In this document: in pieces, positions 38,149 to 64,000 of the stretch
How positions within the stretch are numbered: the stretch's first letter is position 1
How the letters are laid out: every line of letters starts with the position of its first letter
Assembly: GCA_002205965.3 (NCBI GenBank)
Contig: NADL03000041.1
Coordinates: forward strand, 533,725-597,724
From: Kappaphycus alvarezii
Taxonomy: Eukaryota; Rhodophyta; Florideophyceae; Gigartinales; Solieriaceae
Direction: 5' to 3'
DNA: 64,000 nucleotides
Position numbers and translations under genes: made by a program
Notes under the pieces: model-generated
The model's input: only the letters and a program-made list of their open reading frames with translations
What the model was told of the DNA's origin: nothing
Database searches by the model: none

Positions 38149-38151
38149 GGC

Positions 38152-38168
38152 ATGTGATCGAGGGGGGG
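38152..38168 (+). promoter_or_regulatory. Polypurine tract of family C
   Basis: ATGTGATCGAGGGGGGG directly precedes TGTTGGTG of the 3' LTR and matches the family A tract. Confidence 0.75.
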
Positions 38169-39565: not shown

Positions 39566-39603
39566 GTCCAGCAAAGTCCTTCACCCTCTCCGATTCCCAT
39601 TAG
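39566..39603. other. Short filler between family C and the array
   Basis: Thirty-eight bases of unassigned sequence between the recognisable 3' LTR and the first array base. It could be a decayed LTR end or a junction insertion. Confidence 0.3.
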
Positions 39604-41920
39604 TGTTGCTTGGAAGTGCGCGAGTTGTAACTCTGTTTCGAATGTATACAGCAGTCGCCAGAGCTTCTGCCCAGAACTGTTTTGGCAGACTCTTTGCATG
39701 TAGCATTGACCGAACCAGATCCATCAGAGTTCGGTTCAGCCGCTCTGAAACACCATTCTGTTCAGGTGGCTCCACTGCACTAAGCTCATGTTTTGTTCCC
39801 ACGCAGCAAGATAGCCCTTGAATGCAGTGGACATATATTCTCCACCTCGATCTGAACGAAAGATACCAATGCGGCGCCCAGTATGGGCTTCGCTACGAGC
39901 TTGGAACAGTTTATATTTATCAAAGACCTCTGATTTTCGCTGCATCATGTAGACGGTAACCCAGGAGGAGTGATCGTCCGTGAAGTCACAAAGTAGCGTG
40001 CCCCTCCAACTGAAGAAACCTCCATGGGTCCACAAACGTCACTGTGAACAAGGTCTAGTATCGCTTCAGCTCTACCACTCGTACGTTTCTTCGGCACTGC
40101 AGAACGATGAGCCTTTCCTTGAACGCATGGTGTGCATACTTCAGATGCACTCGAGCCACTGATCTGCACGCCGTCTACAACATTGTTCCGTACCATGGAT
40201 GCAATGCCTCTTTGCTTACATGAGCCATTCTCTCGTGCCATGTTGAGAGTGTGGTGACTTTCGCAGAGTACAAGGTATCATTTGGTATCTTCTGGACTAT
40301 GTCGATGGCATAAAGAAGGCTATCGCACAGCATTTTTCCAGTTGCCACAACTTTCCCATTCTTAGTCATCTGCATAGATTTGTTCTCAAATACAGTTTTG
40401 ATCCCTTCTATGTCCGCTTTGCCTACAGGAATGAGAGAGTATTCGAAAGTAGGAACGTGGACAGCATCTCGCAGAATGCACCGCTTTCGACAACCATCCA
40501 CTAGTAGGGTCAGCTCCACGTCACCTCGTTCAGCAATCTTAGCCCGGGCTTTAGTTCCCATTTCGACTGAAGCTGCAGAGAATTCGTATAACTCGTGAAA
40601 ACACTCCTATCGTATGTCATATGGGAAGTACATGCCGAATCCGCGTACCAGGAGGAAGTTCCGGCCGAAATTCCGGCATGTTTCATTCGTGACATTAGGC
40701 AACCGATTTCATTCTCATCTATGTTGTCCTCACTATCAACTGGAGGATGGGAATAAGTCGAATCAAATACATTTGCACCTACGAACGCCTGCTGATCTCT
40801 TTCGGCGATTCTTTTCGTTTCGATGACTACTAGGAGCTCTGCCACTACGAGACCCAGGTGCACGATAGCCCCTCGGAGCTTCCGGGCGCTTACGGCACAT
40901 TTTTGCCCCAGCATCTGTCAGCCGTATGACCGGAATGACCGCAGATCGTACAGTGCAGCTGTTTAGCATTATTTCCGTAGTCATTCGGACGGGCACTGGA
41001 TATGAGCGCCGCATTGGATTTTGTACCTTTTGACTCTCTCATTTGCGCACGCTCCTCTCCCTGCAACAACCGGCTCTTCACAAATTCCAAAGTAAACACC
41101 CTGTTCTCATTTCCGAGCGATCCAAGGCAACTATGAGAGCGTCGAACCGAGGTGGCAATCCATTAAGCACATCCATGGCTATCTCTCTGTCATCGGTAGT
41201 CACATCCATGGATTTCAGGGTCGCTGCTAGCTGCGTCACACGGTTAACATACTGCAAACTCTCTCGTTACCTTCCGTAGCCGCCGTGTAAAACCGGCGTC
41301 GAGCCGCACGCTTATTACGGAGTGTGTGCCTTTCAAACGTGTTGAGAATAATAGTCCACCTCCTTTGCAGTTGCCGCAGTGCGCACATGCTCAAGGTGCT
41401 CATCAGAGAGGGACAACCCGATGAGCACCCGTGCTTTGCGGTCGGCCGAGTCCATGATCTGAAAGCCCCATCATCGGATTCTTCAGGCGGGTCATCCACA
41501 ATATAGTCATCAAGCTCCCGGAGGGCGAGAAGAAGCTGCACCTTCTGCTTCCAAACATGGAAATTATTGTTGGTGAGCTTTTCAATTCGAACTCCGCTCC
41601 GCGGTCGTCCACGACTACGTTCTTATCCAAGACCCTTTGTATCTGAAACCTCTATTACCACGTATGCAGTGAGTTGCAAAGTCCTCTGTTCGGGTATCCA
41701 AGCCGGCGACCGATAGTCGCTTGTCGCGGCAAGGCTTTCCCGATAAGAAGTTTGCAGCGTTTACTCAAGGACACGTGGTTTTAATTTCAACTCTTTACCT
41801 CTTTAGTTTTCCTCCTCTTTACCTATTACCACCTTCTTTATTTGTGCCTTAGGGCGCTACCCCTGTATATCGGCCAGTGCTGGTCTTTCAACTTTGAGCA
41901 CGACCCGTGTGCCACGAGTA
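39604..41920 (-). repeat. Array unit 1 (partial, most altered)
   Basis: It contains gag-protease-integrase up to the integrase helix ending ALPSN at 39604; the end of integrase and the RT piece are missing. More indels than in other units occur, for example near 40245, 40590, 40800, 40890, 41290 and 41595, so no long frame survives. The gag start equivalent is at 41630. Confidence 0.85.
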
Positions 41921-44900
41921 TAATCTCCCCTTTCACCTGCTGGAAACACGAGCGACAGGACGTGCCTTCGATTTTCGAGAAAAGCCACCGTTGGAGTCCT
42001 GGCATCTGTTATTGCAAACACCCATTTTGGAGTCAGAATATTTGAGGCCTCCAAACGTGGGACTAACTTCCATGTTTGTTCCGAATGATCGAGTCTCGCT
42101 CGGACTCGATGGCAGACTTCCAAAAATCTGCGTCCGGGCCTGTCGCCGCGTGTCGGTACGAGATGTTGACAACATTTGTGACGAGAGCCGTGTCATTAGG
42201 TGTCAAGGATATATTGGACCTCCACCAAGCATTTGGGGCCCTTCGAATCCTTCCAGATCTCCGTGGAGCTACAGTTAAATCAGGGGGCTCAGGGATTTCG
42301 TTATCTGTACCAACGTTTTCGGCGACCTTCGGGTCGTCTCTAGCATTAGCCTGGTCATCGCTTTGTCCCTGAATATCTTGTCTCGAAGCTGTAGCCATCT
42401 CGGCTGTGTCCAGTGTAGGAAGCCGGACTTGATCATCCTGTTCAGCGCCGGACCTACAAGATCCTCATCAGAGCTAATTTCAAGACGCTCATCTGATTCG
42501 TTTTCATTTATTTCGGAGTGGCAGGTTTCGCTCTCACTGAATCTGACATCTCTGGAAACAACTACCTCGTGTAATTCAGGATCCCACAGTTTCTAAGCTT
42601 TGCTGGCTTCCGCATATCCAAGCATAATTGCTGCCCGTGCTCGGTAGTCGAGCTTACTCAACTGGCTTGCCCGGATGGTGTACCAACATTTACTTCCGGA
42701 CGTACAAAGGTGCGACAAATTGGGCTTGCGCCCGTACCAGATATGATGCGGGGTCGTGTTGCTTGGAAGTGCGCGAGTTGTAACTCTGTTTCGAATGTAT
42801 ACAGCAGTCGCCAGAGCTTCTGCCCAGAACTGTTTTGGCAGACTCTTTGCATGTAGCATTGACCGAACCAGATCCATCAGAGTTCGGTTCAGCCGCTCTG
42901 AAACACCATTCTGTTCAGGTGGCTCCACTGCACTAAGCTCATGTTTTGTTCCGCACGCAGCAAGATAGCCCTTGAATGCAGTGGACATATATTCTCCACC
43001 TCGATCTGAACGAAAGATACCAATGCGGCGCCCAGTATGGGCTTCGCTACGAGCTTGGAACAGTTTTATATTTATCAAAAGACCTCTGATTTTCGCTGCA
43101 TCATGTAGACGGTAACCCAGGAGGAGTGATCGTCCGTGAAGTCACAAGTAGCGTGCCCCTCCAACTGAAAACCTCCATGGGTCCACAACGTCACTGTGAA
43201 CAAGGTCTGTATCGCTTCAGCTCTACCACTCGTACGTTTCTTCGGCACTGCAGAACGATGAGCCTTTCCTTGAACGCATGGTGTGCATACTTCAGATGCA
43301 CTCGAGCCACTGATCTGCACGCCGTCTACAACATTGTTCCGTACCATGGATGCAATGCCTCTTTGCTTACATGAGCCATTCTCTCGTGCCATGTTGAGAG
43401 TGTGGTGACTTTCGCAGAGTACAAGGTATCATTTGGTATCTTCTGGACTATGTCGATGGCATAAAGAAGGCTATCGCACAGCATTTTTCCAGTTGCCACA
43501 ACTTTCCCATTCTTAGTCATCTGCATAGATTTGTTCTCAAATACAGTTTTGATCCCTTCTATGTCCGCTTTGCCTACAGGAATGAGAGAGTATTCGAAAG
43601 TAGGAACGTGGACAGCATCTCGCAGAATGCACCGCTTTCGACAACCATCCACTAGTAGGGTCAGCTCCACGTCACCTCGTTCAGCAATCTTAGCCCGGGC
43701 TTTAGTTCCCATTTCGACTGAAGCTGCAGAGAATTCGGTATAACTCGTGAAAACACTCCTATCGTATGTCATATGGGAAGTACATGCCGAATCCGCGTAC
43801 CAGGAGGAAGTTCCGGCCGAAATTCCGGCATGTTTCATTCGTGACATTAGGCAACCGATTTCATTCTCATCTATGTTGTCCTCACTATCAACTGGAGGAT
43901 GGGAATAAGTCGAATCAAATACATTTGCACCTACGAACGCCTGCTGATCTCTTCTCGGGCGATTCTTTTCGTTTCGATGACTACTAGGAGCTCTGCCACT
44001 ACGAGACCCAGGTGCACGATAGCCCCTCGGAGCTTCCGGGCGCTTACCGGTCACATTTTTGCCCCAGCATCTGTCAGCCGTATGACCGGAATGACCGCAG
44101 ATCGTACAGTGCAGCTGTTTAGCATTATTTCCGTAGTCATTCGGACGGGCACTGGATATGAGCGCCGCATTGGATTTTGTACCTTTTGACTCTCTCATTT
44201 GCGCACGCTCCTCTCCCTGCAACAACCGGCTCTTCACAAATTCCAAAGTAAACACCCTGTTCTCATTTCCGAGCGCATCCAAGGCAACGATGAGAGCGTC
44301 GAACCGAGGTGGCAATCCATTAAGCACATCCATGGCTATCTCTCTGTCATCGGTAGTCACATCCATGGATTTCAGGGTCGCTGCTAGCTGCGTCACACGG
44401 TTAACATACTGCAAAACTCTCTCGTTACCTTCCGTAGCCGCCGTGTAAAACCGGCGTCGAGCCGCACGCTTATTACGGAGTGTGTGCCTTTCAAACGTGT
44501 TGAGAATAATAGTCCACACCTCCTTTGCAGTTGCCGCAGTGCGCACATGCTCAAGGTGCTCATCAGAGAGGGACAACCCGATGAGCACCCGTGCTTTGCG
44601 GTCGGCCCGAGTCCATGATCTGAAAGCCCCATCATCGGATTCTTCAGGCGGGTCATCCACAATATAGTCATCAAGCTCCCGGAGGGCGAGAAGAAGCTGC
44701 ACCTTCTGCTTCCAAACATGGAAATTATTGTTGGTGAGCTTTTCAATTCGAACTCCGCCTCCGCGGTCGTCCACGACTACGTTCTTATCCAAGACCCTTT
44801 GTATCTGAAACCTCTATTACCACGTATGCAGTGAGTATGCAAAGTCCTCTGTTCGGGTATCCCAAGCCGGCGACCGATAGTCGCTTGTCGCGGCAAGGCT

Positions 44901-45085
44901 TTCCCGATAAGAAGTTTGCAGCGTTTACTCAAGGACACGTGGTGTTTAATTTCCAACTCTTTACCTCTTTAGTTTTCCTCCTCTTTACCTATTACCACCT
45001 CTTTATTTGTGCCTTAGGGCGCTACCCCTGTATATCGGCCAGTGCTGGTCTTTCAACTTTGAGCACGACCCGTGTGCCACGAGTA
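41921..45085 (-). repeat. Array unit 2
   Basis: Complete unit, 3165 bp. It has scattered single-base indels in the RT piece (about 41925-42090) and in integrase (43075-43210). Confidence 0.9.
42593..44792 (-). pseudogene. Unit 2 gag-protease-integrase frame, broken in integrase
   Basis: Open from 44792 for 488 codons through gag, CCHC and protease to KEALHPWYG, where one C is missing (GCCCTC reduced to GCCTC at 43360). Integrase resumes in another frame and ends at the shared TAG at 42593. Confidence 0.85.
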
Positions 45086-45567
45086 TAATCTACCCCTTTC
45101 ACCTGCTGGAAACCACGAGCGACAGGACGTGCCTTCGATTTTCGAGAAAAGCCACCGTTGGAGTCCTGGGCATCTGTTATTGCAAACACCCATTTTGGAG
45201 TCAGAATATTTGAGGCCTCCAAACGTGGGACTAACTTCCATGTTTTGTTCCGAATGATCGAGTCTCGCTCGGACTCGATGGCAGACTTCCAAAAATCTGC
45301 GTCCGGGCCTGTCGCCGCGTGTCGGTACGAGATGTTGACAACATTTGTGACGAGAGCCGTGTCATTAGGTGTCAAGGATATATTGGACCTCCACCAAGCA
45401 TTTGGGGCCCTTCGAATCCTTCCAGATCTCCGTGGAGCTACAGTTAAATCAGGGGGCTCAGGGATTTCGTTATCTGTACCAACGTTTTCGGCGACCTTCG
45501 GGTCGTCTCTAGCATTAGCCTGGTCATCGCTTTGTCCCTGAATATCTTGTCTCGAAGCTGTAGCCAT
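45022..45567 (-). CDS. Unit 3 linker-RT fragment fused to the next leader (181 codons)
   Basis: Begins MATASRQDIQGQ, 65 codons after and in frame with the integrase frame beyond the TAG. It covers the acidic linker, the conserved WKSAIESERDSIIRNKTWKL region and RT to ARGFQQVKGVDY. It crosses the unit junction into leader sequence, adding about 20 residues (TRGTRVVLKVERPALADIQG) before a stop. Not expected to have RT activity: the catalytic boxes are absent. Confidence 0.6.
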   Translation of the reverse strand: MATASRQDIQGQSDDQANARDDPKVAENVGTDNEIPEPPDLTVAPRRSGRIRRAPNAWWRSNISLTPNDTALVTNVVNISYRHAATGPDADFWKSAIESERDSIIRNKTWKLVPRLEASNILTPKWVFAITDAQDSNGGFSRKSKARPVARGFQQVKGVDYTRGTRVVLKVERPALADIQG

Positions 45568-48254
45568 CTCGGCTGTGTCCAGTGTAGGAAGCCGGACTTG
45601 ATCATCCTGTTCAGCGCCGAGACCTACAAGATCCTCATCAGAGCTAATTTCAAGACGCTCATCTGATTCGTTTTCATTTATTTCGGAGTGGCAGGTTTCG
45701 CTCTCACTGAATCTGACATCTCTGGAAACAACTACCTCGTGTAATTCAGGATCCCACAGTTTCTAAGCTTTGCTGGCTTCCGCATATCCAAGCATAATTG
45801 CTGCCCGTGCTCGGTAGTCGAGCTTACTCAACTGGCTTGCCCGGATGGTGTACCAACATTTACTTCCGGACGTACAAAGGTGCGACAAATTGGGCTTGCG
45901 CCCGTACCAGATATGATGCGGGGTCGTGTTGCTTGGAAGTGCGCGAGTTGTAACTCTGTTTCGAATGTATACAGCAGTCGCCAGAGCTTCTGCCCAGAAC
46001 TGTTTTGGCAGACTCTTTGCATGTAGCATTGACCGAACCAGATCCATCAGAGTTCGGTTCAGCCGCTCTGAAACACCATTCTGTTCAGGTGGCTCCACTG
46101 CACTAAGCTCATGTTTTGTTCCGCACGCAGCAAGATAGCCCTTGAATGCAGTGGACATATATTCTCCACCTCGATCTGAACGAAAGATACCAATGCGGCG
46201 CCCAGTATGGGCTTCGCTACGAGCTTGGAACAGTTTATATTTATCAAAGACCTCTGATTTTCGCTGCATCATGTAGACGGTAACCCAGGAGGAGTGATCG
46301 TCCGTGAAAGTCACAAAGTAGCGTGCCCCTCCAACTGAAGAAACCTCCATGGGTCCACAAACGTCACTGTGAACAAGGTCTAGTATCGCTTCAGCTCTAC
46401 CACTCGTACGTTTCTTCGGCACTGCAGAACGATGAGCCTTTCCTTGAACGCATGGTGTGCATACTTCAGATGCACTCGAGCCACTGATCTGCACGCCGTC
46501 TACAACATTGTTCCGTACCATGGATGCAATGCCCTCTTTGCTTACATGAGCCATTCTCTCGTGCCATGTTGAGAGTGTGGTGACTTTCGCAGAGTACAAG
46601 GTATCATTTGGTATCTTCTGGACTATGTCGATGGCATAAAGAAGGCTATCGCACAGCATTTTTCCAGTTGCCACAACTTTCCCATTCTTAGTCATCTGCA
46701 TAGATTTGTTCTCAAATACAGTTTTGATCCCTTCTATGTCCGCTTTGCCTACAGGAATGAGAGAGTATTCGAAAGTAGGAACGTGGACAGCATCTCGCAG
46801 AATGCACCGCTTTCGACAACCATCCACTAGTAGGGTCAGCTCCACGTCACCTCGTTCAGCAATCTTAGCCCGGGCTTTAGTTCCCATTTCGACTGAAGCT
46901 GCAGAGAATTCGGTATAACTCGTGAAAACACTCCTATCGTATGTCATATGGGAAGTACATGCCGAATCCGCGTACCAGGAGGAAGTTCCGGCCGAAATTC
47001 CGGCATGTTTCATTCGTGACATTAGGCAACCGATTTCATTCTCATCTATGTTGTCCTCACTATCAACTGGAGGATGGGAATAAGTCGAATCAAATACATT
47101 TGCACCTACGAACGCCTGCTGATCTCTTCTCGGGCGATTCTTTTCGTTTCGATGACTACTAGGAGCTCTGCCACTACGAGACCCAGGTGCACGATAGCCC
47201 CTCGGGCTTCCGGGCGCTTACCGGTCACATTTTTGCCCCAGCATCTGTCAGCCGTATGACCGGAATGACCGCAGATCGTACAGTGCAGCTGTTTAGCATT
47301 ATTTCCGTAGTCATTCGGACGGGCACTGGATATGAGCGCCGCATTGGATTTTGTACCTTTTGACTCTCTCATTTGCGCACGCTCCTCTCCCTGCAACAAC
47401 CGGCTCTTCACAAATTCCAAAGTAAACACCCTGTTCTCATTTCCGAGCGCATCCAAGGCAACGATGAGAGCGTCGAACCGAGGTGGCAATCCATTAAGCA
47501 CATCCATGGCTATCTCTCTGTCATCGGTAGTCACATCCATGGATTTCAGGGTCGCTGCTAGCTGCGTCACACGGTTAACATACTGCAAAACTCTCTCGTT
47601 ACCTTCCGTAGCCGCCGTGTAAAACCGGCGTCGAGCCGCACGCTTATTACGGAGTGTGTGCCTTTCAAACGTGTTGAGAATAATAGTCCACACCTCCTTT
47701 GCAGTTGCCGCAGTGCGCACATGCTCAAGGTGCTCATCAGAGAGGGACAACCCGATGAGCACCCGTGCTTTGCGGTCGGCCCGAGTCCATGATCTGAAAG
47801 CCCCATCATCGGATTCTTCAGGCGGGTCATCCACAATATAGTCATCAAGCTCCCGGAGGGCGAGAAGAAGCTGCACCTTCTGCTTCCAAACATGGAAATT
47901 ATTGTTGGTGAGCTTTTCAATTCGAACTCCGCCTCCGCGGTCGTCCACGACTACGTTCTTATCCAAGACCCTTTGTATCTGAAACCTCTATTACCACGTA
48001 TGCAGTGAGTATGCAAAGTCCTCTGTTCGGGTATCCCAAGCCGGCGACCGATAGTCGCTTGTCGCGGCAAGGCTTTCCCGATAAGAAGTTTGCAGCGTTT
48101 ACTCAAGGACACGTGGTGTTTAATTTCCAACTCTTCCTCTTTAGTTTCCTCCTCTTACCTATTACCACTCTTTATTTGTGCCTTAGGGCGCTACCCCTGT
48201 ATATCGGCCAGTGCCGGTCTTTCAACTTTGAGCACGACCCGTGTGCCACGAGTA
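45086..48254 (-). repeat. Array unit 3
   Basis: Complete unit, 3169 bp. A two-base loss in the gag-protease linker (CTCGGGCTTCC at 47202 versus CTCGGAGCTTCC elsewhere) is specific to this unit. Confidence 0.9.
45763..47966 (-). pseudogene. Unit 3 gag-protease-integrase frame, one frameshift
   Basis: Reads from 47966 through the zinc knuckle to GKRPEA, then shifts because of the two-base loss at about 47205. The protease-integrase part is open from 47022 down to the shared TAG at 45763 and retains the D,D,E residues. Confidence 0.87.
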
Positions 48255-48267
48255 TAATCTACCCCTT

Positions 48268-48735
48268 TCACCTGTGGAAACCACGAGCGACAGGACGTGC
48301 CTTCGATTTTCGAGAAAAGCCACCGTTGGAGTCCTGGGCATCTGTTATTGCAAACACCCATTTTGGAGTCAGAATATTTGAGGCCTCCAAACGTGGGACT
48401 AACTTCCATGTTTTGTTCCGAATGATCGAGTCTCGCTCGGACTCGATGGCAGACTTCCAAAAATCTGCGTCCGGGCCTGTCGCCGCGTGTCGGTACGAGA
48501 TGTTGACAACATTTGTGACGAGAGCCGTGTCATTAGGTGTCAAGGATATATTGGACCTCCACCAAGCATTTGGGGCCCTTCGAATCCTTCCAGATCTCCG
48601 TGGAGCTACAGTTAAATCAGGGGGCTCAGGGATTTCGTTATCTGTACCAACGTTTTCGGCGACCTTCGGGTCGTCTCTAGCATTAGCCTGGTCATCGCTT
48701 TGTCCCTGAATATCTTGTCTCGAAGCTGTAGCCAT
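48268..48735 (-). pseudogene. Unit 4 linker-RT fragment (155 codons)
   Basis: Same as in unit 3 but ends ARGFHR because one base is missing in CACCTGTGG at 48272 relative to CACCTGCTGG, so it stops before the unit junction. Confidence 0.55.
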
Positions 48736-48930
48736 CTCGGCTGTGTCCAGTGTAGGAAGCCGGACTTGATCATCCTGTTCAGCGCCGAGACCTACAAGAT
48801 CCTCATCAGAGCTAATTTCAAGACGCTCATCTGATTCGTTTTCATTTATTTCGGAGTGGCAGGTTTCGCTCTCACTGAATCTGACATCTCTGGAAACAAC
48901 TACCTCGTGTAATTCAGGATCCCACAGTTT

Positions 48931-51134
48931 CTAAGCTTTGCTGGCTTCCGCATATCCAAGCATAATTGCTGCCCGTGCTCGGTAGTCGAGCTTACTCAAC
49001 TGGCTTGCCCGGATGGTGTACCAACATTTACTTCCGGACGTACAAAGGTGCGACAAATTGGGCTTGCGCCCGTACCAGATATGATGCGGGGTCGTGTTGC
49101 TTGGAAGTGCGCGAGTTGTAACTCTGTTTCGAATGTATACAGCAGTCGCCAGAGCTTCTGCCCAGAACTGTTTTGGCAGACTCTTTGCATGTAGCATTGA
49201 CCGAACCAGATCCATCAGAGTTCGGTTCAGCCGCTCTGAAACACCATTCTGTTCAGGTGGCTCCACTGCACTAAGCTCATGTTTTGTTCCGCACGCAGCA
49301 AGATAGCCCTTGAATGCAGTGGACATATATTCTCCACCTCGATCTGAACGAAAGATACCAATGCGGCGCCCAGTATGGCTTCGCTACGAGCTTGGAACAG
49401 TTTATATTTATCAAAGACCTCTGATTTTCGCTGCATCATGTAGACGGTAACCCAGGAGGAGTGATCGTCCGTGAAAGTCACAAAGTAGCGTGCCCCTCCA
49501 ACTGAAGAAACCTCCATGGGTCCACAAACGTCACTGTGAACAAGGTCTAGTATCGCTTCAGCTCTACCACTCGTACGTTTCTTCGGCACTGCAGAACGAT
49601 GAGCCTTTCCTTGAACGCATGGTGTGCATACTTCAGATGCACTCGAGCCACTGATCTGCACGCCGTCTACAACATTGTTCCGTACCATGGATGCAATGCC
49701 CTCTTTGCTTACATGAGCCATTCTCTCGTGCCATGTTGAGAGTGTGGTGACTTTCGCAGAGTACAAGGTATCATTTGGTATCTTCTGGACTATGTCGATG
49801 GCATAAAGAAGGCTATCGCACAGCATTTTTCCAGTTGCCACAACTTTCCCATTCTTAGTCATCTGCATAGATTTGTTCTCAAATACAGTTTTGATCCCTT
49901 CTATGTCCGCTTTGCCTACAGGAATGAGAGAGTATTCGAAAGTAGGAACGTGGACAGCATCTCGCAGAATGCACCGCTTTCGACAACCATCCACTAGTAG
50001 GGTCAGCTCCACGTCACCTCGTTCAGCAATCTTAGCCCGGGCTTTAGTTCCCATTTCGACTGAAGCTGCAGAGAATTCGGTATAACTCGTGAAAACACTC
50101 CTATCGTATGTCATATGGGAAGTACATGCCGAATCCGCGTACCAGGAGGAAGTTCCGGCCGAAATTCCGGCATGTTTCATTCGTGACATTAGGCAACCGA
50201 TTTCATTCTCATCTATGTTGTCCTCACTATCAACTGGAGGATGGGAATAAGTCGAATCAAATACATTTGCACCTACGAACGCCTGCTGATCTCTTCTCGG
50301 GCGATTCTTTTCGTTTCGATGACTACTAGGAGCTCTGCCACTACGAGACCCAGGTGCACGATAGCCCCTCGGAGCTTCCGGGCGCTTACCGGTCACATTT
50401 TTGCCCCAGCATCTGTCAGCCGTATGACCGGAATGACCGCAGATCGTACAGTGCAGCTGTTTAGCATTATTTCCGTAGTCATTCGGACGGGCACTGGATA
50501 TGAGCGCCGCATTGGATTTTGTACCTTTTGACTCTCTCATTTGCGCACGCTCCTCTCCCTGCAACAACCGGCTCTTCACAAATTCCAAAGTAAACACCCT
50601 GTTCTCATTTCCGAGCGCATCCAAGGCAACGATGAGAGCGTCGAACCGAGGTGGCAATCCATTAAGCACATCCATGGCTATCTCTCTGTCATCGGTAGTC
50701 ACATCCATGGATTTCAGGGTCGCTGCTAGCTGCGTCACACGGTTAACATACTGCAAAACTCTCTCGTTACCTTCCGTAGCCGCCGTGTAAAACCGGCGTC
50801 GAGCCGCACGCTTATTACGGAGTGTGTGCCTTTCAAACGTGTTGAGAATAATAGTCCACACCTCCTTTGCAGTTGCCGCAGTGCGCACATGCTCAAGGTG
50901 CTCATCAGAGAGGGACAACCCGATGAGCACCCGTGCTTTGCGGTCGGCCCGAGTCCATGATCTGAAAGCCCCATCATCGGATTCTTCAGGCGGGTCATCC
51001 ACAATATAGTCATCAAGCTCCCGGAGGGCGAGAAGAAGCTGCACCTTCTGCTTCCAAACATGGAAATTATTGTTGGTGAGCTTTTCAATTCGAACTCCGC
51101 CTCCGCGGTCGTCCACGACTACGTTCTTATCCAA
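48931..51134 (-). pseudogene. Unit 4 gag-protease-integrase frame, one frameshift in integrase
   Basis: Open from 51134 for 635 codons, but the reading frame changes after FQARSEA because GTATGGGCTT is GTATGGCTT at about 49375. The remainder of integrase (GGEYMSTAF onward) is open in the original frame to the shared TAG at 48931. Confidence 0.88.
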
Positions 51135-51440
51135 GACCCTTTGTATCTGAAACCTCTATTACCACGTATGCAGTGAGTATGCAAAGTCCTCTGTTCGGGT
51201 ATCCCAAGCCGGCGACCGATAGTCGCTTGTCGCGGCAAGGCTTTCCCGATAAGAAGTTTGCAGCGTTTACTCAAGGACACGTGGTGTTTAATTTCCAACT
51301 CTTTACCTCTTTAGTTTTCCTCCTCTTTACCTATTACCACCTCTTTATTTGTGCCTTAGGGCGCTACCCCTGTATATCGGCCAGTGCCGGTCTTTCAACT
51401 TTGAGCACGACCCGTGTGCCACGAGTATAATCTACCCCTT

Positions 51441-51908
51441 TCACCTGTGGAAACCACGAGCGACAGGACGTGCCTTCGATTTTCGAGAAAAGCCACCGTT
51501 GGAGTCCTGGGCATCTGTTATTGCAAACACCCATTTTGGAGTCAGAATATTTGAGGCCTCCAAACGTGGGACTAACTTCCATGTTTTGTTCCGAATGATC
51601 GAGTCTCGCTCGGACTCGATGGCAGACTTCCAAAAATCTGCGTCCGGGCCTGTCGCCGCGTGTCGGTACGAGATGTTGACAACATTTGTGACGAGAGCCG
51701 TGTCATTAGGTGTCAAGGATATATTGGACCTCCACCAAGCATTTGGGGCCCTTCGAATCCTTCCAGATCTCCGTGGAGCTACAGTTAAATCAGGGGGCTC
51801 AGGGATTTCGTTATCTGTACCAACGTTTTCGGCGACCTTCGGGTCGTCTCTAGCATTAGCCTGGTCATCGCTTTGTCCCTGAATATCTTGTCTCGAAGCT
51901 GTAGCCAT
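51441..51908 (-). CDS. Unit 5 linker-RT fragment (155 codons)
   Basis: Starts MATASRQDIQGQ at 51908, in frame with the 734-codon frame across its single TAG. Contains the acidic linker and RT start, ending ARGFHR by a one-base difference at 51447. Lacks catalytic RT motifs. Confidence 0.5.
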   Translation of the reverse strand: MATASRQDIQGQSDDQANARDDPKVAENVGTDNEIPEPPDLTVAPRRSGRIRRAPNAWWRSNISLTPNDTALVTNVVNISYRHAATGPDADFWKSAIESERDSIIRNKTWKLVPRLEASNILTPKWVFAITDAQDSNGGFSRKSKARPVARGFHR

Positions 51909-52103
51909 CTCGGCTGTGTCCAGTGTAGGAAGCCGGACTTGATCATCCTGTTCAGCGCCGAGACCTACAAGATCCTCATCAGAGCTAATTTCAAGACGCT
52001 CATCTGATTCGTTTTCATTTATTTCGGAGTGGCAGGTTTCGCTCTCACTGAATCTGACATCTCTGGAAACAACTACCTCGTGTAATTCAGGATCCCACAG
52101 TTT

Positions 52104-54308
52104 CTAAGCTTTGCTGGCTTCCGCATATCCAAGCATAATTGCTGCCCGTGCTCGGTAGTCGAGCTTACTCAACTGGCTTGCCCGGATGGTGTACCAACAT
52201 TTACTTCCGGACGTACAAAGGTGCGACAAATTGGGCTTGCGCCCGTACCAGATATGATGCGGGGTCGTGTTGCTTGGAAGTGCGCGAGTTGTAACTCTGT
52301 TTCGAATGTATACAGCAGTCGCCAGAGCTTCTGCCCAGAACTGTTTTGGCAGACTCTTTGCATGTAGCATTGACCGAACCAGATCCATCAGAGTTCGGTT
52401 CAGCCGCTCTGAAACACCATTCTGTTCAGGTGGCTCCACTGCACTAAGCTCATGTTTTGTTCCGCACGCAGCAAGATAGCCCTTGAATGCAGTGGACATA
52501 TATTCTCCACCTCGATCTGAACGAAAGATACCAATGCGGCGCCCAGTATGGGCTTCGCTACGAGCTTGGAACAGTTTATATTTATCAAAGACCTCTGATT
52601 TTCGCTGCATCATGTAGACGGTAACCCAGGAGGAGTGATCGTCCGTGAAAGTCACAAAGTAGCGTGCCCCTCCAACTGAAGAAACCTCCATGGGTCCACA
52701 AACGTCACTGTGAACAAGGTCTAGTATCGCTTCAGCTCTACCACTCGTACGTTTCTTCGGCACTGCAGAACGATGAGCCTTTCCTTGAACGCATGGTGTG
52801 CATACTTCAGATGCACTCGAGCCACTGATCTGCACGCCGTCTACAACATTGTTCCGTACCATGGATGCAATGCCCTCTTTGCTTACATGAGCCATTCTCT
52901 CGTGCCATGTTGAGAGTGTGGTGACTTTCGCAGAGTACAAGGTATCATTTGGTATCTTCTGGACTATGTCGATGGCATAAAGAAGGCTATCGCACAGCAT
53001 TTTTCCAGTTGCCACAACTTTCCCATTCTTAGTCATCTGCATAGATTTGTTCTCAAATACAGTTTTGATCCCTTCTATGTCCGCTTTGCCTACAGGAATG
53101 AGAGAGTATTCGAAAGTAGGAACGTGGACAGCATCTCGCAGAATGCACCGCTTTCGACAACCATCCACTAGTAGGGTCAGCTCCACGTCACCTCGTTCAG
53201 CAATCTTAGCCCGGGCTTTAGTTCCCATTTCGACTGAAGCTGCAGAGAATTCGGTATAACTCGTGAAAACACTCCTATCGTATGTCATATGGGAAGTACA
53301 TGCCGAATCCGCGTACCAGGAGGAAGTTCCGGCCGAAATTCCGGCATGTTTCATTCGTGACATTAGGCAACCGATTTCATTCTCATCTATGTTGTCCTCA
53401 CTATCAACTGGAGGATGGGAATAAGTCGAATCAAATACATTTGCACCTACGAACGCCTGCTGATCTCTTCTCGGGCGATTCTTTTCGTTTCGATGACTAC
53501 TAGGAGCTCTGCCACTACGAGACCCAGGTGCACGATAGCCCCTCGGAGCTTCCGGGCGCTTACCGGTCACATTTTTGCCCCAGCATCTGTCAGCCGTATG
53601 ACCGGAATGACCGCAGATCGTACAGTGCAGCTGTTTAGCATTATTTCCGTAGTCATTCGGACGGGCACTGGATATGAGCGCCGCATTGGATTTTGTACCT
53701 TTTGACTCTCTCATTTGCGCACGCTCCTCTCCCTGCAACAACCGGCTCTTCACAAATTCCAAAGTAAACACCCTGTTCTCATTTCCGAGCGCATCCAAGG
53801 CAACGATGAGAGCGTCGAACCGAGGTGGCAATCCATTAAGCACATCCATGGCTATCTCTCTGTCATCGGTAGTCACATCCATGGATTTCAGGGTCGCTGC
53901 TAGCTGCGTCACACGGTTAACATACTGCAAAACTCTCTCGTTACCTTCCGTAGCCGCCGTGTAAAACCGGCGTCGAGCCGCACGCTTATTACGGAGTGTG
54001 TGCCTTTCAAACGTGTTGAGAATAATAGTCCACACCTCCTTTGCAGTTGCCGCAGTGCGCACATGCTCAAGGTGCTCATCAGAGAGGGACAACCCGATGA
54101 GCACCCGTGCTTTGCGGTCGGCCCGAGTCCATGATCTGAAAGCCCCATCATCGGATTCTTCAGGCGGGTCATCCACAATATAGTCATCAAGCTCCCGGAG
54201 GGCGAGAAGAAGCTGCACCTTCTGCTTCCAAACATGGAAATTATTGTTGGTGAGCTTTTCAATTCGAACTCCGCCTCCGCGGTCGTCCACGACTACGTTC
54301 TTATCCAA
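52104..54308 (-). CDS. Unit 5 gag-protease-integrase polyprotein (734 codons, intact)
   Basis: Residues ~10-200 are the UBN2-type capsid (KLTNNNFHVWKQKVQLLLAL); ~226-242 the CCHC knuckle (CTICGHSGHTADRC); ~330 the protease motif ADSACTSHM with D-S-A instead of D-S-G. ~467 is WHERMAHVSKEGIASM and ~508 CTPCVQGKAHRS (HHCC). ~534 is LVHSDVCGP, ~597 SDRGGEY and ~630 PEQNGVSERLN, giving a D,D35E integrase triad. It ends at ASKA plus TAG (52104), where copies A1 and A2 have TAC in ASKAYKLWDP. The frame begins at a TTG (54308); the ATG of A1 is GTG here, and a stop lies upstream, so normal initiation is doubtful. After the TAG the same frame is open for 220 more codons. Role if expressed: capsid and integrase without RT. 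Confidence 0.85.
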   Translation of the reverse strand: MDKNVVVDDRGGGVRIEKLTNNNFHVWKQKVQLLLALRELDDYIVDDPPEESDDGAFRSWTRADRKARVLIGLSLSDEHLEHVRTAATAKEVWTIILNTFERHTLRNKRAARRRFYTAATEGNERVLQYVNRVTQLAATLKSMDVTTDDREIAMDVLNGLPPRFDALIVALDALGNENRVFTLEFVKSRLLQGEERAQMRESKGTKSNAALISSARPNDYGNNAKQLHCTICGHSGHTADRCWGKNVTGKRPEAPRGYRAPGSRSGRAPSSHRNEKNRPRRDQQAFVGANVFDSTYSHPPVDSEDNIDENEIGCLMSRMKHAGISAGTSSWYADSACTSHMTYDRSVFTSYTEFSAASVEMGTKARAKIAERGDVELTLLVDGCRKRCILRDAVHVPTFEYSLIPVGKADIEGIKTVFENKSMQMTKNGKVVATGKMLCDSLLYAIDIVQKIPNDTLYSAKVTTLSTWHERMAHVSKEGIASMVRNNVVDGVQISGSSASEVCTPCVQGKAHRSAVPKKRTSGRAEAILDLVHSDVCGPMEVSSVGGARYFVTFTDDHSSWVTVYMMQRKSEVFDKYKLFQARSEAHTGRRIGIFRSDRGGEYMSTAFKGYLAACGTKHELSAVEPPEQNGVSERLNRTLMDLVRSMLHAKSLPKQFWAEALATAVYIRNRVTTRALPSNTTPHHIWYGRKPNLSHLCTSGSKCWYTIRASQLSKLDYRARAAIMLGYAEASKA

Positions 54309-54614
54309 GACCCTTTGTATCTGAAACCTCTATTACCACGTATGCAGTGAGTATGCAAAGTCCTCTGTTCGGGTATCCCAAGCCGGCGACCGATAGTCGC
54401 TTGTCGCGGCAAGGCTTTCCCGATAAGAAGTTTGCAGCGTTTACTCAAGGACACGTGGTGTTTAATTTCCAACTCTTTACCTCTTTAGTTTTCCTCCTCT
54501 TTACCTATTACCACCTCTTTATTTGTGCCTTAGGGCGCTACCCCTGTATATCGGCCAGTGCCGGTCTTTCAACTTTGAGCACGACCCGTGTGCCACGAGT
54601 ATAATCTACCCCTT

Positions 54615-55082
54615 TCACCTGTGGAAACCACGAGCGACAGGACGTGCCTTCGATTTTCGAGAAAAGCCACCGTTGGAGTCCTGGGCATCTGTTATTGCAA
54701 ACACCCATTTTGGAGTCAGAATATTTGAGGCCTCCAAACGTGGGACTAACTTCCATGTTTTGTTCCGAATGATCGAGTCTCGCTCGGACTCGATGGCAGA
54801 CTTCCAAAAATCTGCGTCCGGGCCTGTCGCCGCGTGTCGGTACGAGATGTTGACAACATTTGTGACGAGAGCCGTGTCATTAGGTGTCAAGGATATATTG
54901 GACCTCCACCAAGCATTTGGGGCCCTTCGAATCCTTCCAGATCTCCGTGGAGCTACAGTTAAATCAGGGGGCTCAGGGATTTCGTTATCTGTACCAACGT
55001 TTTCGGCGACCTTCGGGTCGTCTCTAGCATTAGCCTGGTCATCGCTTTGTCCCTGAATATCTTGTCTCGAAGCTGTAGCCAT
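54615..55082 (-). CDS. Unit 6 linker-RT fragment (155 codons)
   Basis: Same as in unit 5, ending ARGFHR; in frame with the preceding integrase frame across one TAG. Confidence 0.5.
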   Translation of the reverse strand: MATASRQDIQGQSDDQANARDDPKVAENVGTDNEIPEPPDLTVAPRRSGRIRRAPNAWWRSNISLTPNDTALVTNVVNISYRHAATGPDADFWKSAIESERDSIIRNKTWKLVPRLEASNILTPKWVFAITDAQDSNGGFSRKSKARPVARGFHR

Positions 55083-55277
55083 CTCGGCTGTGTCCAGTGT
55101 AGGAAGCCGGACTTGATCATCCTGTTCAGCGCCGAGACCTACAAGATCCTCATCAGAGCTAATTTCAAGACGCTCATCTGATTCGTTTTCATTTATTTCG
55201 GAGTGGCAGGTTTCGCTCTCACTGAATCTGACATCTCTGGAAACAACTACCTCGTGTAATTCAGGATCCCACAGTTT

Positions 55278-57482
55278 CTAAGCTTTGCTGGCTTCCGCAT
55301 ATCCAAGCATAATTGCTGCCCGTGCTCGGTAGTCGAGCTTACTCAACTGGCTTGCCCGGATGGTGTACCAACATTTACTTCCGGACGTACAAAGGTGCGA
55401 CAAATTGGGCTTGCGCCCGTACCAGATATGATGCGGGGTCGTGTTGCTTGGAAGTGCGCGAGTTGTAACTCTGTTTCGAATGTATACAGCAGTCGCCAGA
55501 GCTTCTGCCCAGAACTGTTTTGGCAGACTCTTTGCATGTAGCATTGACCGAACCAGATCCATCAGAGTTCGGTTCAGCCGCTCTGAAACACCATTCTGTT
55601 CAGGTGGCTCCACTGCACTAAGCTCATGTTTTGTTCCGCACGCAGCAAGATAGCCCTTGAATGCAGTGGACATATATTCTCCACCTCGATCTGAACGAAA
55701 GATACCAATGCGGCGCCCAGTATGGGCTTCGCTACGAGCTTGGAACAGTTTATATTTATCAAAGACCTCTGATTTTCGCTGCATCATGTAGACGGTAACC
55801 CAGGAGGAGTGATCGTCCGTGAAAGTCACAAAGTAGCGTGCCCCTCCAACTGAAGAAACCTCCATGGGTCCACAAACGTCACTGTGAACAAGGTCTAGTA
55901 TCGCTTCAGCTCTACCACTCGTACGTTTCTTCGGCACTGCAGAACGATGAGCCTTTCCTTGAACGCATGGTGTGCATACTTCAGATGCACTCGAGCCACT
56001 GATCTGCACGCCGTCTACAACATTGTTCCGTACCATGGATGCAATGCCCTCTTTGCTTACATGAGCCATTCTCTCGTGCCATGTTGAGAGTGTGGTGACT
56101 TTCGCAGAGTACAAGGTATCATTTGGTATCTTCTGGACTATGTCGATGGCATAAAGAAGGCTATCGCACAGCATTTTTCCAGTTGCCACAACTTTCCCAT
56201 TCTTAGTCATCTGCATAGATTTGTTCTCAAATACAGTTTTGATCCCTTCTATGTCCGCTTTGCCTACAGGAATGAGAGAGTATTCGAAAGTAGGAACGTG
56301 GACAGCATCTCGCAGAATGCACCGCTTTCGACAACCATCCACTAGTAGGGTCAGCTCCACGTCACCTCGTTCAGCAATCTTAGCCCGGGCTTTAGTTCCC
56401 ATTTCGACTGAAGCTGCAGAGAATTCGGTATAACTCGTGAAAACACTCCTATCGTATGTCATATGGGAAGTACATGCCGAATCCGCGTACCAGGAGGAAG
56501 TTCCGGCCGAAATTCCGGCATGTTTCATTCGTGACATTAGGCAACCGATTTCATTCTCATCTATGTTGTCCTCACTATCAACTGGAGGATGGGAATAAGT
56601 CGAATCAAATACATTTGCACCTACGAACGCCTGCTGATCTCTTCTCGGGCGATTCTTTTCGTTTCGATGACTACTAGGAGCTCTGCCACTACGAGACCCA
56701 GGTGCACGATAGCCCCTCGGAGCTTCCGGGCGCTTACCGGTCACATTTTTGCCCCAGCATCTGTCAGCCGTATGACCGGAATGACCGCAGATCGTACAGT
56801 GCAGCTGTTTAGCATTATTTCCGTAGTCATTCGGACGGGCACTGGATATGAGCGCCGCATTGGATTTTGTACCTTTTGACTCTCTCATTTGCGCACGCTC
56901 CTCTCCCTGCAACAACCGGCTCTTCACAAATTCCAAAGTAAACACCCTGTTCTCATTTCCGAGCGCATCCAAGGCAACGATGAGAGCGTCGAACCGAGGT
57001 GGCAATCCATTAAGCACATCCATGGCTATCTCTCTGTCATCGGTAGTCACATCCATGGATTTCAGGGTCGCTGCTAGCTGCGTCACACGGTTAACATACT
57101 GCAAAACTCTCTCGTTACCTTCCGTAGCCGCCGTGTAAAACCGGCGTCGAGCCGCACGCTTATTACGGAGTGTGTGCCTTTCAAACGTGTTGAGAATAAT
57201 AGTCCACACCTCCTTTGCAGTTGCCGCAGTGCGCACATGCTCAAGGTGCTCATCAGAGAGGGACAACCCGATGAGCACCCGTGCTTTGCGGTCGGCCCGA
57301 GTCCATGATCTGAAAGCCCCATCATCGGATTCTTCAGGCGGGTCATCCACAATATAGTCATCAAGCTCCCGGAGGGCGAGAAGAAGCTGCACCTTCTGCT
57401 TCCAAACATGGAAATTATTGTTGGTGAGCTTTTCAATTCGAACTCCGCCTCCGCGGTCGTCCACGACTACGTTCTTATCCAA
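55278..57482 (-). CDS. Unit 6 gag-protease-integrase polyprotein (734 codons, intact)
   Basis: The encoded protein is the same as in unit 5, residue for residue as far as I can see. It has the same TTG start position, D-S-A protease motif, D,D,E integrase and terminal TAG. Two consecutive units coding for the same product show how little divergence has accumulated. Confidence 0.85.
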   Translation of the reverse strand: MDKNVVVDDRGGGVRIEKLTNNNFHVWKQKVQLLLALRELDDYIVDDPPEESDDGAFRSWTRADRKARVLIGLSLSDEHLEHVRTAATAKEVWTIILNTFERHTLRNKRAARRRFYTAATEGNERVLQYVNRVTQLAATLKSMDVTTDDREIAMDVLNGLPPRFDALIVALDALGNENRVFTLEFVKSRLLQGEERAQMRESKGTKSNAALISSARPNDYGNNAKQLHCTICGHSGHTADRCWGKNVTGKRPEAPRGYRAPGSRSGRAPSSHRNEKNRPRRDQQAFVGANVFDSTYSHPPVDSEDNIDENEIGCLMSRMKHAGISAGTSSWYADSACTSHMTYDRSVFTSYTEFSAASVEMGTKARAKIAERGDVELTLLVDGCRKRCILRDAVHVPTFEYSLIPVGKADIEGIKTVFENKSMQMTKNGKVVATGKMLCDSLLYAIDIVQKIPNDTLYSAKVTTLSTWHERMAHVSKEGIASMVRNNVVDGVQISGSSASEVCTPCVQGKAHRSAVPKKRTSGRAEAILDLVHSDVCGPMEVSSVGGARYFVTFTDDHSSWVTVYMMQRKSEVFDKYKLFQARSEAHTGRRIGIFRSDRGGEYMSTAFKGYLAACGTKHELSAVEPPEQNGVSERLNRTLMDLVRSMLHAKSLPKQFWAEALATAVYIRNRVTTRALPSNTTPHHIWYGRKPNLSHLCTSGSKCWYTIRASQLSKLDYRARAAIMLGYAEASKA

Positions 57483-57711
57483 GACCCTTTGTATCTGAAA
57501 CCTCTATTACCACGTATGCAGTGAGTATGCAAAGTCCTCTGTTCGGGTATCCCAAGCCGGCGACCGATAGTCGCTTGTCGCGGCAAGGCTTTCCCGATAA
57601 GAAGTTTGCAGCGTTTACTCAAGGACACGTGGTGTTTAATTTCCAACTCTTCACCTCTTTAGTTTTCCTCCTCTTTACCTATTACCACCTCTTTATTTGT
57701 GCCTTAGGGCG

Positions 57712-58257
57712 CTACCCCTGTATATCGGCCAGTGCCGGTCTTTCAACTTTGAGCACGACCCGTGTGCCACGAGTATAATCTACCCCTTTCACCTGTTGGA
57801 AACCACGAGCGACAGGACGTGCCTTCGATTTTCGAGAAAAGCCACCGTTGGAGTCCTGGGCATCTGTTATTGCAAACACCCATTTTGGAGTCAGAATATT
57901 TGAGGCCTCCAAACGTGGGACTAACTTCCATGTTTTGTTCCGAATGATCGAGTCTCGCTCGGACTCGATGGCAGACTTCCAAAAATCTGCGTCCGGGCCT
58001 GTCGCCGCGTGTCGGTACGAGATGTTGACAACATTTGTGACGAGAGCCGTGTCATTAGGTGTCAAGGATATATTGGACCTCCACCAAGCATTTGGGGCCC
58101 TTCGAATCCTTCCAGATCTCCGTGGAGCTACAGTTAAATCAGGGGGCTCAGGGATTTCGTTATCTGTACCAACGTTTTCGGCGACCTTCGGGTCGTCTCT
58201 AGCATTAGCCTGGTCATCGCTTTGTCCCTGAATATCTTGTCTCGAAGCTGTAGCCAT
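57712..58257 (-). CDS. Unit 7 linker-RT fragment fused to the next leader (181 codons)
   Basis: Like unit 3: the frame passes GFQQVKGVDY, crosses the junction at 57775/57776 and adds leader-encoded residues ending ALADIQG. This and unit 3 probably show the founding frame; the 155-codon versions carry a one-base loss. Confidence 0.6.
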   Translation of the reverse strand: MATASRQDIQGQSDDQANARDDPKVAENVGTDNEIPEPPDLTVAPRRSGRIRRAPNAWWRSNISLTPNDTALVTNVVNISYRHAATGPDADFWKSAIESERDSIIRNKTWKLVPRLEASNILTPKWVFAITDAQDSNGGFSRKSKARPVARGFQQVKGVDYTRGTRVVLKVERPALADIQG

Positions 58258-60949
58258 CTCGGCTGTGTCCAGTGTAGGAAGCCGGACTTGATCATCCTGT
58301 TCAGCGCCGAGACCTACAAGATCCTCATCAGAGCTAATTTCAAGACGCTCATCTGATTCGTTTTCATTTATTTCGGAGTGGCAGGTTTCGCTCTCACTGA
58401 ATCTGACATCTCTGGAAACAACTACCTCGTGTAATTCAGGATCCCACAGTTTCTAAGCTTTGCTGGCTTCCGCATATCCAAGCATAATTGCTGCCCGTGC
58501 TCGGTAGTCGAGCTTACTCAACTGGCTTGCCCGGATGGTGTACCAACATTTACTTCCGGACGTACAAAGGTGCGACAAATTGGGCTTGCGCCCGTACCAG
58601 ATATGATGCGGGTCGTGTTGCTTGGAAGTGCGCGAGTTGTAACTCTGTTTCGAATGTATACAGCAGTCGCCAGAGCTTCTGCCCAGAACTGTTTTGGCAG
58701 ACTCTTTGCATGTAGCATTGACCGAACCAGATCCATCAGAGTTCGGTTCAGCCGCTCTGAAACACCATTCTGTTCAGGTGGCTCCACTGCACTAAGCTCA
58801 TGTTTTGTTCCGCACGCAGCAAGATAGCCCTTGAATGCAGTGGACATATATTCTCCACCTCGATCTGAACGAAAGATACCAATGCGGCGCCCAGTATGGG
58901 CTTCGCTACGAGCTTGGAACAGTTTATATTTATCAAAGACCTCTGATTTTCGCTGCATCATGTAGACGGTAACCCAGGAGGAGTGATCGTCCGTGAAAGT
59001 CACAAAGTAGCGTGCCCCTCCAACTGAAGAAACCTCCATGGGTCCACAAACGTCACTGTGAACAAGGTCTAGTATCGCTTCAGCTCTACCACTCGTACGT
59101 TTCTTCGGCACTGCAGAACGATGAGCCTTTCCTTGAACGCATGGTGTGCATACTTCAGATGCACTCGAGCCACTGATCTGCACGCCGTCTACAACATTGT
59201 TCCGTACCATGGATGCAATGCCCTCTTTGCTTACATGAGCCATTCTCTCGTGCCATGTTGAGAGTGTGGTGACTTTCGCAGAGTACAAGGTATCATTTGG
59301 TATCTTCTGGACTATGTCGATGGCATAAAGAAGGCTATCGCACAGCATTTTTCCAGTTGCCACAACTTTCCCATTCTTAGTCATCTGCATAGATTTGTTC
59401 TCAAATACAGTTTTGATCCCTTCTATGTCCGCTTTGCCTACAGGAATGAGAGAGTATTCGAAAGTAGGAACGTGGACAGCATCTCGCAGAATGCACCGCT
59501 TTCGACAACCATCCACTAGTAGGGTCAGCTCCACGTCACCTCGTTCAGCAATCTTAGCCCGGGCTTTAGTTCCCATTTCGACTGAAGCTGCAGAGAATTC
59601 GGTATAACTCGTGAAAACACTCCTATCGTATGTCATATGGGAAGTACATGCCGAATCCGCGTACCAGGAGGAAGTTCCGGCCGAAATTCCGGCATGTTTC
59701 ATTCGTGACATTAGGCAACCGATTTCATTCTCATCTATGTTGTCCTCACTATCAACTGGAGGATGGGAATAAGTCGAATCAAATACATTTGCACCTACGA
59801 ACGCCTGCTGATCTCTTCTCGGGCGATTCTTTTCGTTTCGATGACTACTAGGAGCTCTGCCACTACGAGACCCAGGTGCACGATAGCCCCTCGGAGCTTC
59901 CGGGCGCTTACCGGTCACATTTTTGCCCCAGCATCTGTCAGCCGTATGACCGGAATGACCGCAGATCGTACAGTGCAGCTGTTTAGCATTATTTCCGTAG
60001 TCATTCGGACGGGCACTGGATATGAGCGCCGCATTGGATTTTGTACCTTTTGACTCTCTCATTTGCGCACGCTCCTCTCCCTGCAACAACCGGCTCTTCA
60101 CAAATTCCAAAGTAAACACCCTGTTCTCATTTCCGAGCGCATCCAAGGCAACGATGAGAGCGTCGAACCGAGGTGGCAATCCATTAAGCACATCCATGGC
60201 TATCTCTCTGTCATCGGTAGTCACATCCATGGATTTCAGGGTCGCTGCTAGCTGCGTCACACGGTTAACATACTGCAAAACTCTCTCGTTACCTTCCGTA
60301 GCCGCCGTGTAAAACCGGCGTCGAGCCGCACGCTTATTACGGAGTGTGTGCCTTTCAAACGTGTTGAGAATAATAGTCCACACCTCCTTTGCAGTTGCCG
60401 CAGTGCGCACATGCTCAAGGTGCTCATCAGAGAGGGACAACCCGATGAGCACCCGTGCTTTGCGGTCGGCCCGAGTCCATGATCTGAAAGCCCCATCATC
60501 GGATTCTTCAGGCGGGTCATCCACAATATAGTCATCAAGCTCCCGGAGGGCGAGAAGAAGCTGCACCTTCTGCTTCCAAACATGGAAATTATTGTTGGTG
60601 AGCTTTTCAATTCGAACTCCGCCTCCGCGGTCGTCCACGACTACGTTCTTATCCAAGACCCTTTGTATCTGAAACCTCTATTACCACGTATGCAGTGAGT
60701 ATGCAAAGTCCTCTGTTCGGGTATCCCAAGCCGGCGACCGATAGTCGCTTGTCGCGGCAAGGCTTTCCCGATAAGAAGTTTGCAGCGTTTACTCAAGGAC
60801 ACGTGGTGTTTAATTTCCAACTCTTCACCTCTTTAGTTTTCCTCCTCTTTACCTATTACCACCTCTTTATTTGTGCCTTAGGGCGCTACCCCTGTATATC
60901 GGCCAGTGCCGGTCTTTCAACTTTGAGCACGACCCGTGTGCCACGAGTA
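57776..60949 (-). repeat. Array unit 7
   Basis: Complete unit, 3174 bp. One G is missing in GCGGGGTCG at about 58612, while the RT piece has one T more (CACCTGTTGG at 57791), so the total length is unchanged. Confidence 0.92.
58453..60656 (-). pseudogene. Unit 7 gag-protease-integrase frame, late frameshift
   Basis: Identical to units 5 and 6 up to ALPSNTT, then shifted by the missing G near 58612 and stopped at 58518 (712 codons open). The D,D,E triad lies before the shift and is intact. The shared TAG equivalent is at 58453. Confidence 0.88.
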
Positions 60950-60962
60950 TAATCTACCCCTT

Positions 60963-61430: not shown

Positions 61431-61625
61431 CTCGGCTGTGTCCAGTGTAGGAAGCCGGACTTGATCATCCTGTTCAGCGCCGAGACCTACAAGATCCTCA
61501 TCAGAGCTAATTTCAAGACGCTCATCTGATTCGTTTTCATTTATTTCGGAGTGGCAGGTTTCGCTCTCACTGAATCTGACATCTCTGGAAACAACTACCT
61601 CGTGTAATTCAGGATCCCACAGTTT

Positions 61626-63833: not shown

Positions 63834-64000
63834 GACCCTTTGTATCTGAAACCTCTATTACCACGTATGCAGTGAGTATGCAAAGTCCTCTGTTCGGGTA
63901 TCCCAAGCCGGCGACCGATAGTCGCTTGTCGCGGCAAGGCTTTCCGATAAGAAGTTTGCAGCGTTTACTCAAGGACACGTGGTGTTTAATTTCCAACTCT

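Follow-up and report, generated by a model that had tools for sequence, protein, structure and literature searches.

A young satellite-like array, probably grown from a dead internal Copia fragment, at a contig end of Kappaphycus alvarezii

How does the inside of a retrotransposon come to lie in a head-to-tail tandem without its long terminal repeats (LTRs), and does the long reading frame that it keeps open mean anything? Both questions are raised by a 64-kb stretch of DNA from the red alga Kappaphycus alvarezii, hereafter the window, which forms the last 64 kb of contig C41 (NADL03000041.1, positions 533725-597724 of 597724). The genome searched was the 336.02-Mb assembly of 884 contigs. Self-BLAST of the window, together with unit cutting, placed one direct-repeat array on the minus strand from 39604 (start at 39603/39604) to 64000, the last base of the contig, so that 24.4 kb of array is contained in the assembly. 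The array comprises six complete units (3165-3174 bases) and two partial ones, or ~7.7 unit lengths. An earlier reading of the letters alone (the sequence-only reading) had described at least eight head-to-tail copies of ~3.17 kb on the minus strand; array, strand and length stand, and the number eight is reached only by counting the two partial units. We argue that the array is probably satellite-like DNA that descends from a single, dead internal piece of a Copia element, in which an LTR-less dimer would have arisen by deletion or duplication, been expanded by unequal exchange and later been partly inverted.

The long frame of the unit matched the Pfam families PF14223, PF13976, PF00665 and PF25597 (copia-type gag, gag_pre-integrase, integrase core and the first part of an SH3-like domain) as well as Pol_BBD, which we judge from its position to be the protease region. 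Past a stop codon shared by the units lies the remainder of the SH3-like domain, below the Pfam cut-off, and the last part of the unit aligns to the protein of a neighbouring element, up to ~50 residues into its RVT_2 match. The copia-type gag, and an integrase that precedes reverse transcriptase (RT), identify the unit as Copia in origin. Pfam reported neither RVT_2 nor RNase H on the unit, and the family LTR gave no match to the array in self-BLAST. With LTRs, full RT and RNase H not found in the unit, it is not an intact Copia element, nor does the array show the alternation of LTR and internal region that marks an LTR-sharing tandem. Self-BLAST and Pfam thus agree with the sequence-only reading that the unit runs from the leader to the start of RT, with LTRs, most of RT and RNase H absent.

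Adjacent units meet where RT runs straight into the leader; set against N1, a two-LTR relative of the unit in the window, the two sides of the joint overlap by 2 bases (TA). One junction had been claimed for all units, and a 21-base version of this joint was matched exactly in 7/7 cases; a 41-base version was exact in six of the seven, the seventh being without one base. A short-pattern search of the whole assembly returned 12 places: the seven exact ones in the array, one with a single mismatch in a further unit, N2, and four at the 3-mismatch limit, two of which resemble ordinary leader. Judged by these matches, the RT-leader joint is private to the C41 locus.

N2, which does not appear in the sequence-only reading, lies on the plus strand (29588-32155) and is 1.5-1.7% diverged from the array units. 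Since a unit ~1.5% away already has the joint, the joint predates the present uniformity of the array. A single recent burst from a fresh element was rejected on this ground, N2 having both the joint and the lost start codon described below. The recent expansion claimed earlier therefore holds in the sense of a young LTR-less tandem, and fails as one recent step.

The units are nearly identical, as had been noted: pairwise substitutions number 0-6 among the six complete units and 0-1 among U1-U5. U8 is the most divergent, with 7-13 substitutions in 2.2-2.3 kb relative to the other units (0.17-0.43% in a second alignment that opens more gaps). Single-base differences are frequent in U7, U8, N1 and N2; most are deletions, many lie in short homopolymers, and they look like sequencing or polishing errors. 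At three unit positions (40, 124 and 3154), variants are common to neighbouring units, the pattern that unequal exchange would leave. The array thus combines near-identical head-to-tail units with a source family in the same genome (relatives at 95-97%, LTR sequence adjoining, and the loci on C818, C158 and C292 described below), as a retrotransposon-derived satellite does.

Three units were said to have fully intact frames. The frame is indeed open over 734, 734 and 735 codons, but each begins at TTG, the family ATG being lost, and ends at the shared nonsense codon. The gag ATG of the family is altered in N2 and all eight units, and intact in N1 and the nine other relatives that cover the site. 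Exact matches to the altered start motif number eight genome-wide and lie without exception on C41, in N2 and in seven of the units, U8 being one base short within the motif. The motif with one mismatch was found at 211 further places, with ATG in 92/92 among the matches listed. The nonsense codon, at unit positions 2496-2498, is common to 7/7 units covering it, and is absent from N2 and from 12/12 other relatives.

Codon changes were counted over unit positions 312-2420, outside which the shared stop lies, and were polarised by three outgroup loci. Codon columns were removed if gaps were too many or if any group under comparison was polymorphic there; a single column with a different pattern was put aside, and L004 and L006 were left out of the canonical group as having no gag start. 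Synonymous/nonsynonymous changes in gag-integrase were 5/28 on the stem shared by array and N2, 3/8 in the array and 2/10 plus one stop in N2. By contrast, the canonical stem gave 6/0, and the branch that separates the outgroups from everything else gave 49/25. Summed over the array lineage the changes number 10/46, which differs from the 55/25 of the relatives' two branches (Fisher p = 4e-9) and is not significantly different from the neutral share (p = 0.10). Private changes were 13/12 plus one stop in L007, 17/24 in L008, 6/24 plus two stops in L005 and 3/6 in L003. The start codon and purifying selection expected of a domesticated gag/integrase gene were not found in the array. The array is dead DNA whose frame is open because it is young, and no protein function is expected of it; the earlier emphasis on an open capsid-integrase frame falls away with the lost start, the shared stop and these counts.

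Relatives elsewhere in the genome match the unit at 89-97% (34 of 1319 candidates scored, in a list that is incomplete in that the window's own copies are not in it). On C818, the contiguous loci L001, L024 and L002 form an internal-LTR-internal arrangement that repeats about every 7.0 kb; C158 shows the same order, repeated every 5.8 kb. The 92 listed gag starts include 17 same-strand neighbour pairs less than 8 kb apart; by spacing only, 12/17 lie at 6.77-7.29 kb, which is what an LTR-sharing tandem would give. Gag starts ~7 kb apart, again by spacing only, were also seen on C108, C198, C302, C304, C191 and C234, and these spacings suggest that there may be many more LTR-sharing tandems.

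Rearranged units recur within such tandems. On C292 (L005, L044), a deletion from RT into LTR has left one RT-LTR joint in 2/2 units examined. On C158 (L004, L006, L047), a 1182-base foreign segment replaces the leader and gag start in two units, 99.8% alike, and a third unit has the first 247 bases of this segment at its head, after the LTR. From these repeated rearrangements we conclude that rearranged units do spread along tandems of this Copia family.

Between N2 and the array lies an LTR element of another Copia family (the bridging element; Table 1). It is flanked by plus-strand N2 and minus-strand U8, CCAGA and GTGTT adjoin its LTRs, and comparison of these flanking five bases gave no target-site duplication. 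A simple insertion into the array was rejected, since its two flanks are oriented differently and the five bases that adjoin the LTRs are not the same on the two sides. Its 3' LTR has a high-copy end (40/40 matched, with 40 of 1933 first-look candidates scored). The end of its 5' LTR is common to 30/39 other places, and 9/39 stop where likeness to the 3' LTR ends; since all 39 matches begin at or just past the 480-base gap point, the 5' LTR fusion was not seen elsewhere among the 40 of 1565 candidates scored. The simplest reading of these sequences would be that two inserted copies recombined and inverted the intervening DNA, a false assembly join being the alternative. The presence of the private RT-leader joint on both sides of the bridging element indicates that both sides probably belonged to one original array.

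These observations can be arranged in an order. The Copia family, as C818, C158 and C292 show, makes LTR-sharing tandems, in two of which a rearranged unit type has spread to its neighbours. At C41, such a tandem would have undergone a ~3.85-kb deletion that began in RT, took in RNase H and the LTR and ended in the following leader, leaving two LTR-less units head to tail, their joint showing a 2-base overlap; alternatively, a duplication inside one element could have produced this pair. The gag start codon was lost before N2 and the array parted, in a lineage that shows no coding constraint. Unequal exchange or gene conversion may then have expanded and homogenised one unit type, which carried the stop codon absent from N2. 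Lastly, recombination between two LTR elements that had entered the array in opposite orientations could have inverted part of it and left a hybrid element between plus-strand N2 and the minus-strand array.

Several points weigh against this order of events. The 2-base overlap at the joint lies within chance, and an LTR-less dimer was seen nowhere else. As many of the one-base differences look like sequencing errors, variant sharing comes down to three sites, and unit position 40 is untidy: there the outlier N2 agrees with U2-U6 and differs from U7, U8 and the relatives, a pattern that fits no simple order neatly. The coding changes of the array lineage are compatible with neutrality, and some other copies of the family, L005 and L003 for example, also look unconstrained and appear to be decaying. 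The evidence for the inversion is a single hybrid element, and its family is high-copy, a setting in which assemblers make mistakes as well. The sole visible outer edge, at 29588, falls at a permuted unit position with a ~3-base overlap with a TRIM-like repeat (TRIM, terminal-repeat retrotransposon in miniature) and not in element DNA. Had the duplication taken place in situ, leader or LTR would be expected at this edge, barring later loss; the edge is thus easier to reconcile with end-joining of array DNA, or with a later deletion, than with an undisturbed in-place duplication.

This edge is the best evidence for a different origin, which fits it as well or better. An extrachromosomal circle running from leader to RT could have closed at the 2-base overlap and been copied by the rolling-circle route, its concatemer then entering a break in the TRIM-like repeat by end-joining; the single joint type in every unit, the near-identity of the units and the permuted edge with its short overlap to unrelated DNA would all follow. 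Such a circle is nevertheless unlikely: the joint predates the split of N2 and the array (1.5%), so that one recent burst fails to explain both, the gag start was already lost when the two parted, and the unit has no LTR, unlike the usual retrotransposon circles, which are one- and two-LTR circles. In our judgement, the LTR-sharing tandems of the family, two of them with rearranged units that have spread, make the chromosomal route the more likely. An assembly artefact, whether a short true tandem over-unrolled at the contig end or a false join of array and N2 through the high-copy LTR element, is rather improbable. It would agree with the ending of the contig inside the array, the 0-1 substitutions among U1-U5, the many single-base differences of U7, U8, N1 and N2 (for the most part deletions in short homopolymers), and the copy number of the bridging LTR. 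U6, U7 and U8, however, have variants of their own or shared with neighbours, and the joint occurs on C41 alone and on both sides of the bridging element, two pieces that a random misjoin would hardly unite. That the array is kept as a coding array, for a domesticated capsid-integrase protein for example, is highly improbable: the 734-735 codons open in three units speak for it, but the family-start ATG is gone (the first in-frame ATG of U3 comes only at unit position 720), a stop codon is common to the units and there is no sign of purifying selection. A function of the 734-codon frame was rejected on the same grounds of start codon, nonsense codon and coding constraint. The deletion or duplication followed by unequal exchange remains our preferred account.

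Satellites can derive from gag or pol domains of LTR retrotransposons (PMC12628747), so that the array, called unusual by the sequence-only reading, is so when set against the LTR-sharing tandems of its family, and not as a kind of satellite; its likeness to the satellites treated there is that head-to-tail units are cut from a retrotransposon. Among published examples, CRM1TR/CRM4TR of maize and, in wild potato, the 4.7-kb Sobo repeat involve the untranslated region (UTR) or LTR of centromeric or Gypsy elements (PMC3648361), and the Ogre-derived satellites of Lathyrus are short repeats of the Ogre 3' UTR (PMC7004042), whereas the C41 array has a 3.17-kb, mostly coding Copia internal unit, from leader to RT start, and a joint found at one locus. 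LTR-sharing tandem LTR retrotransposons (PMC11899658) are of the kind that this Copia family makes at C818 and C158; compared with them, the C41 unit is without an LTR, and no flanking target-site duplication was found. The expansion of transposable element dimers by unequal exchange (McGurk and Barbash, via PMC12628747) offers the same two-step path of dimer and then expansion, though those tandems consist of elements joined by double insertion or LTR recombination and that of C41 consists of an internal fragment. Literature searches for gag/integrase satellites and for red algae turned up little, and printed cases may still exist.

The array is a clear example, known in kind, of a dead transposon becoming satellite-like DNA. 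What is uncommon is that the order of events can be read, and that LTR-sharing, rearranged and LTR-less tandems of one family stand in one genome. The older outer unit, the young array and the LTR-sharing tandems allow the steps to be ordered, beyond the end product: joint and start-codon loss came first and amplification later. In a young tandem, a long open frame should not be taken as evidence of function. More speculatively, and we hold this to be doubtful, LTR-sharing Copia tandems might serve as satellite nurseries in which rearranged units (C292 with its RT-to-LTR deletion, C158 with its replaced leader and gag start, C41 with no LTR) spread stepwise, so that one family would contain every stage between a mobile element and an LTR-less megasatellite, and the C41 array might extend into a large satellite block with a structural role, such as a centromere.

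Table 1. Array units and neighbouring elements, with positions in the window
Feature	Position	Strand	Remarks
RT fragment joined directly to N1 5' LTR	20686-21134	+	Read as a remnant of an LTR-sharing tandem
N1, relative of array unit with two LTRs (21135-22368, 28167-29371)	21135-29371	+	LTRs 95.4% alike
Piece of ~325-base TRIM-like repeat between N1 and N2	29372-29590	+	N2 left edge lies in its terminal repeat
N2, older unit, orientation opposite to array	29588-32155	+	~37 bases of unit tail, then RT-leader joint (one mismatch); ends at ~unit position 2540
Bridging element: LTR element from a different Copia family, lying between N2 and array	32156-39602	+	1057-codon frame; two LTR types; right border 39602 or 39603
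5' LTR of bridging element	32156-33118	+	Without ~480 bases of the 3' LTR; different end
3' LTR of bridging element	38169-39602	+	39250-39603 100% identical at 39 other places
U8, partial array unit	39604-41920	-	2317 bases; stops at unit position 2317, abutting LTR element
U7, array unit	41921-45085	-	3165 bases
U6, array unit	45086-48254	-	3169 bases
U5, array unit	48255-51427	-	3173 bases
U4, array unit	51428-54601	-	3174 bases; Pfam: copia-type gag, Pol_BBD, gag_pre-integrs, rve, part of SH3-like domain
U3, array unit	54602-57775	-	3174 bases; 734-codon frame without ATG start
U2, array unit	57776-60949	-	3174 bases
U1, array unit truncated at contig end	60950-64000	-	3051 bases

N1 lies ~215 bases to the left of N2. 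The direct join of an RT fragment to its 5' LTR, and the limited likeness of its two LTRs, may be marks of LTR recombination at the C41 locus. Directly after the 5' LTR, both Copia families have GGTTATGG(G)CCCAG (at 22369 and 33119), a sequence presumably compatible with priming from the middle of initiator tRNA-Met (half-tRNA priming). Both LTRs of the bridging element contain a ~70-base tandem repeat of ~5 copies (32407-32777 and 38902-39259).

The TRIM-like element (29372-29590; also L040 and L042) has ~84-base terminal repeats, TGTTGA...CCTACA, with a G-rich tract before the 3' repeat, and by our reading tRNA-like pieces around the start of its internal part. GTGAG stands on both sides of L040, and of 641 candidates for this repeat 40 were scored, which gave 91 matches.

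No tRNA gene was found in the window under a bacterial-code setting, and no Rfam family reached its gathering score there; a search of the assembly for RuBisCO gave no match, which would imply an assembly without a plastid contig. At 193-3136, small- and large-chain parts of carbamoyl-phosphate synthase lie in one direction and are probably one fused host gene with introns, the fusion being our reading of the arrangement. In a nuclear piece resembling COX1, TGA stands for tryptophan, as it does in the mitochondria of red algae and of other groups; the best solved-structure match of this piece is 7jro, which we take to be plant mitochondrial. Long uninterrupted COX1 frames were also seen in ~55% G+C stretches at L036 (C546) and L037 (C562); the best solved-structure match of the L036 piece is 2yev, presumably bacterial, and both loci are possibly bacterial contaminants in the assembly.

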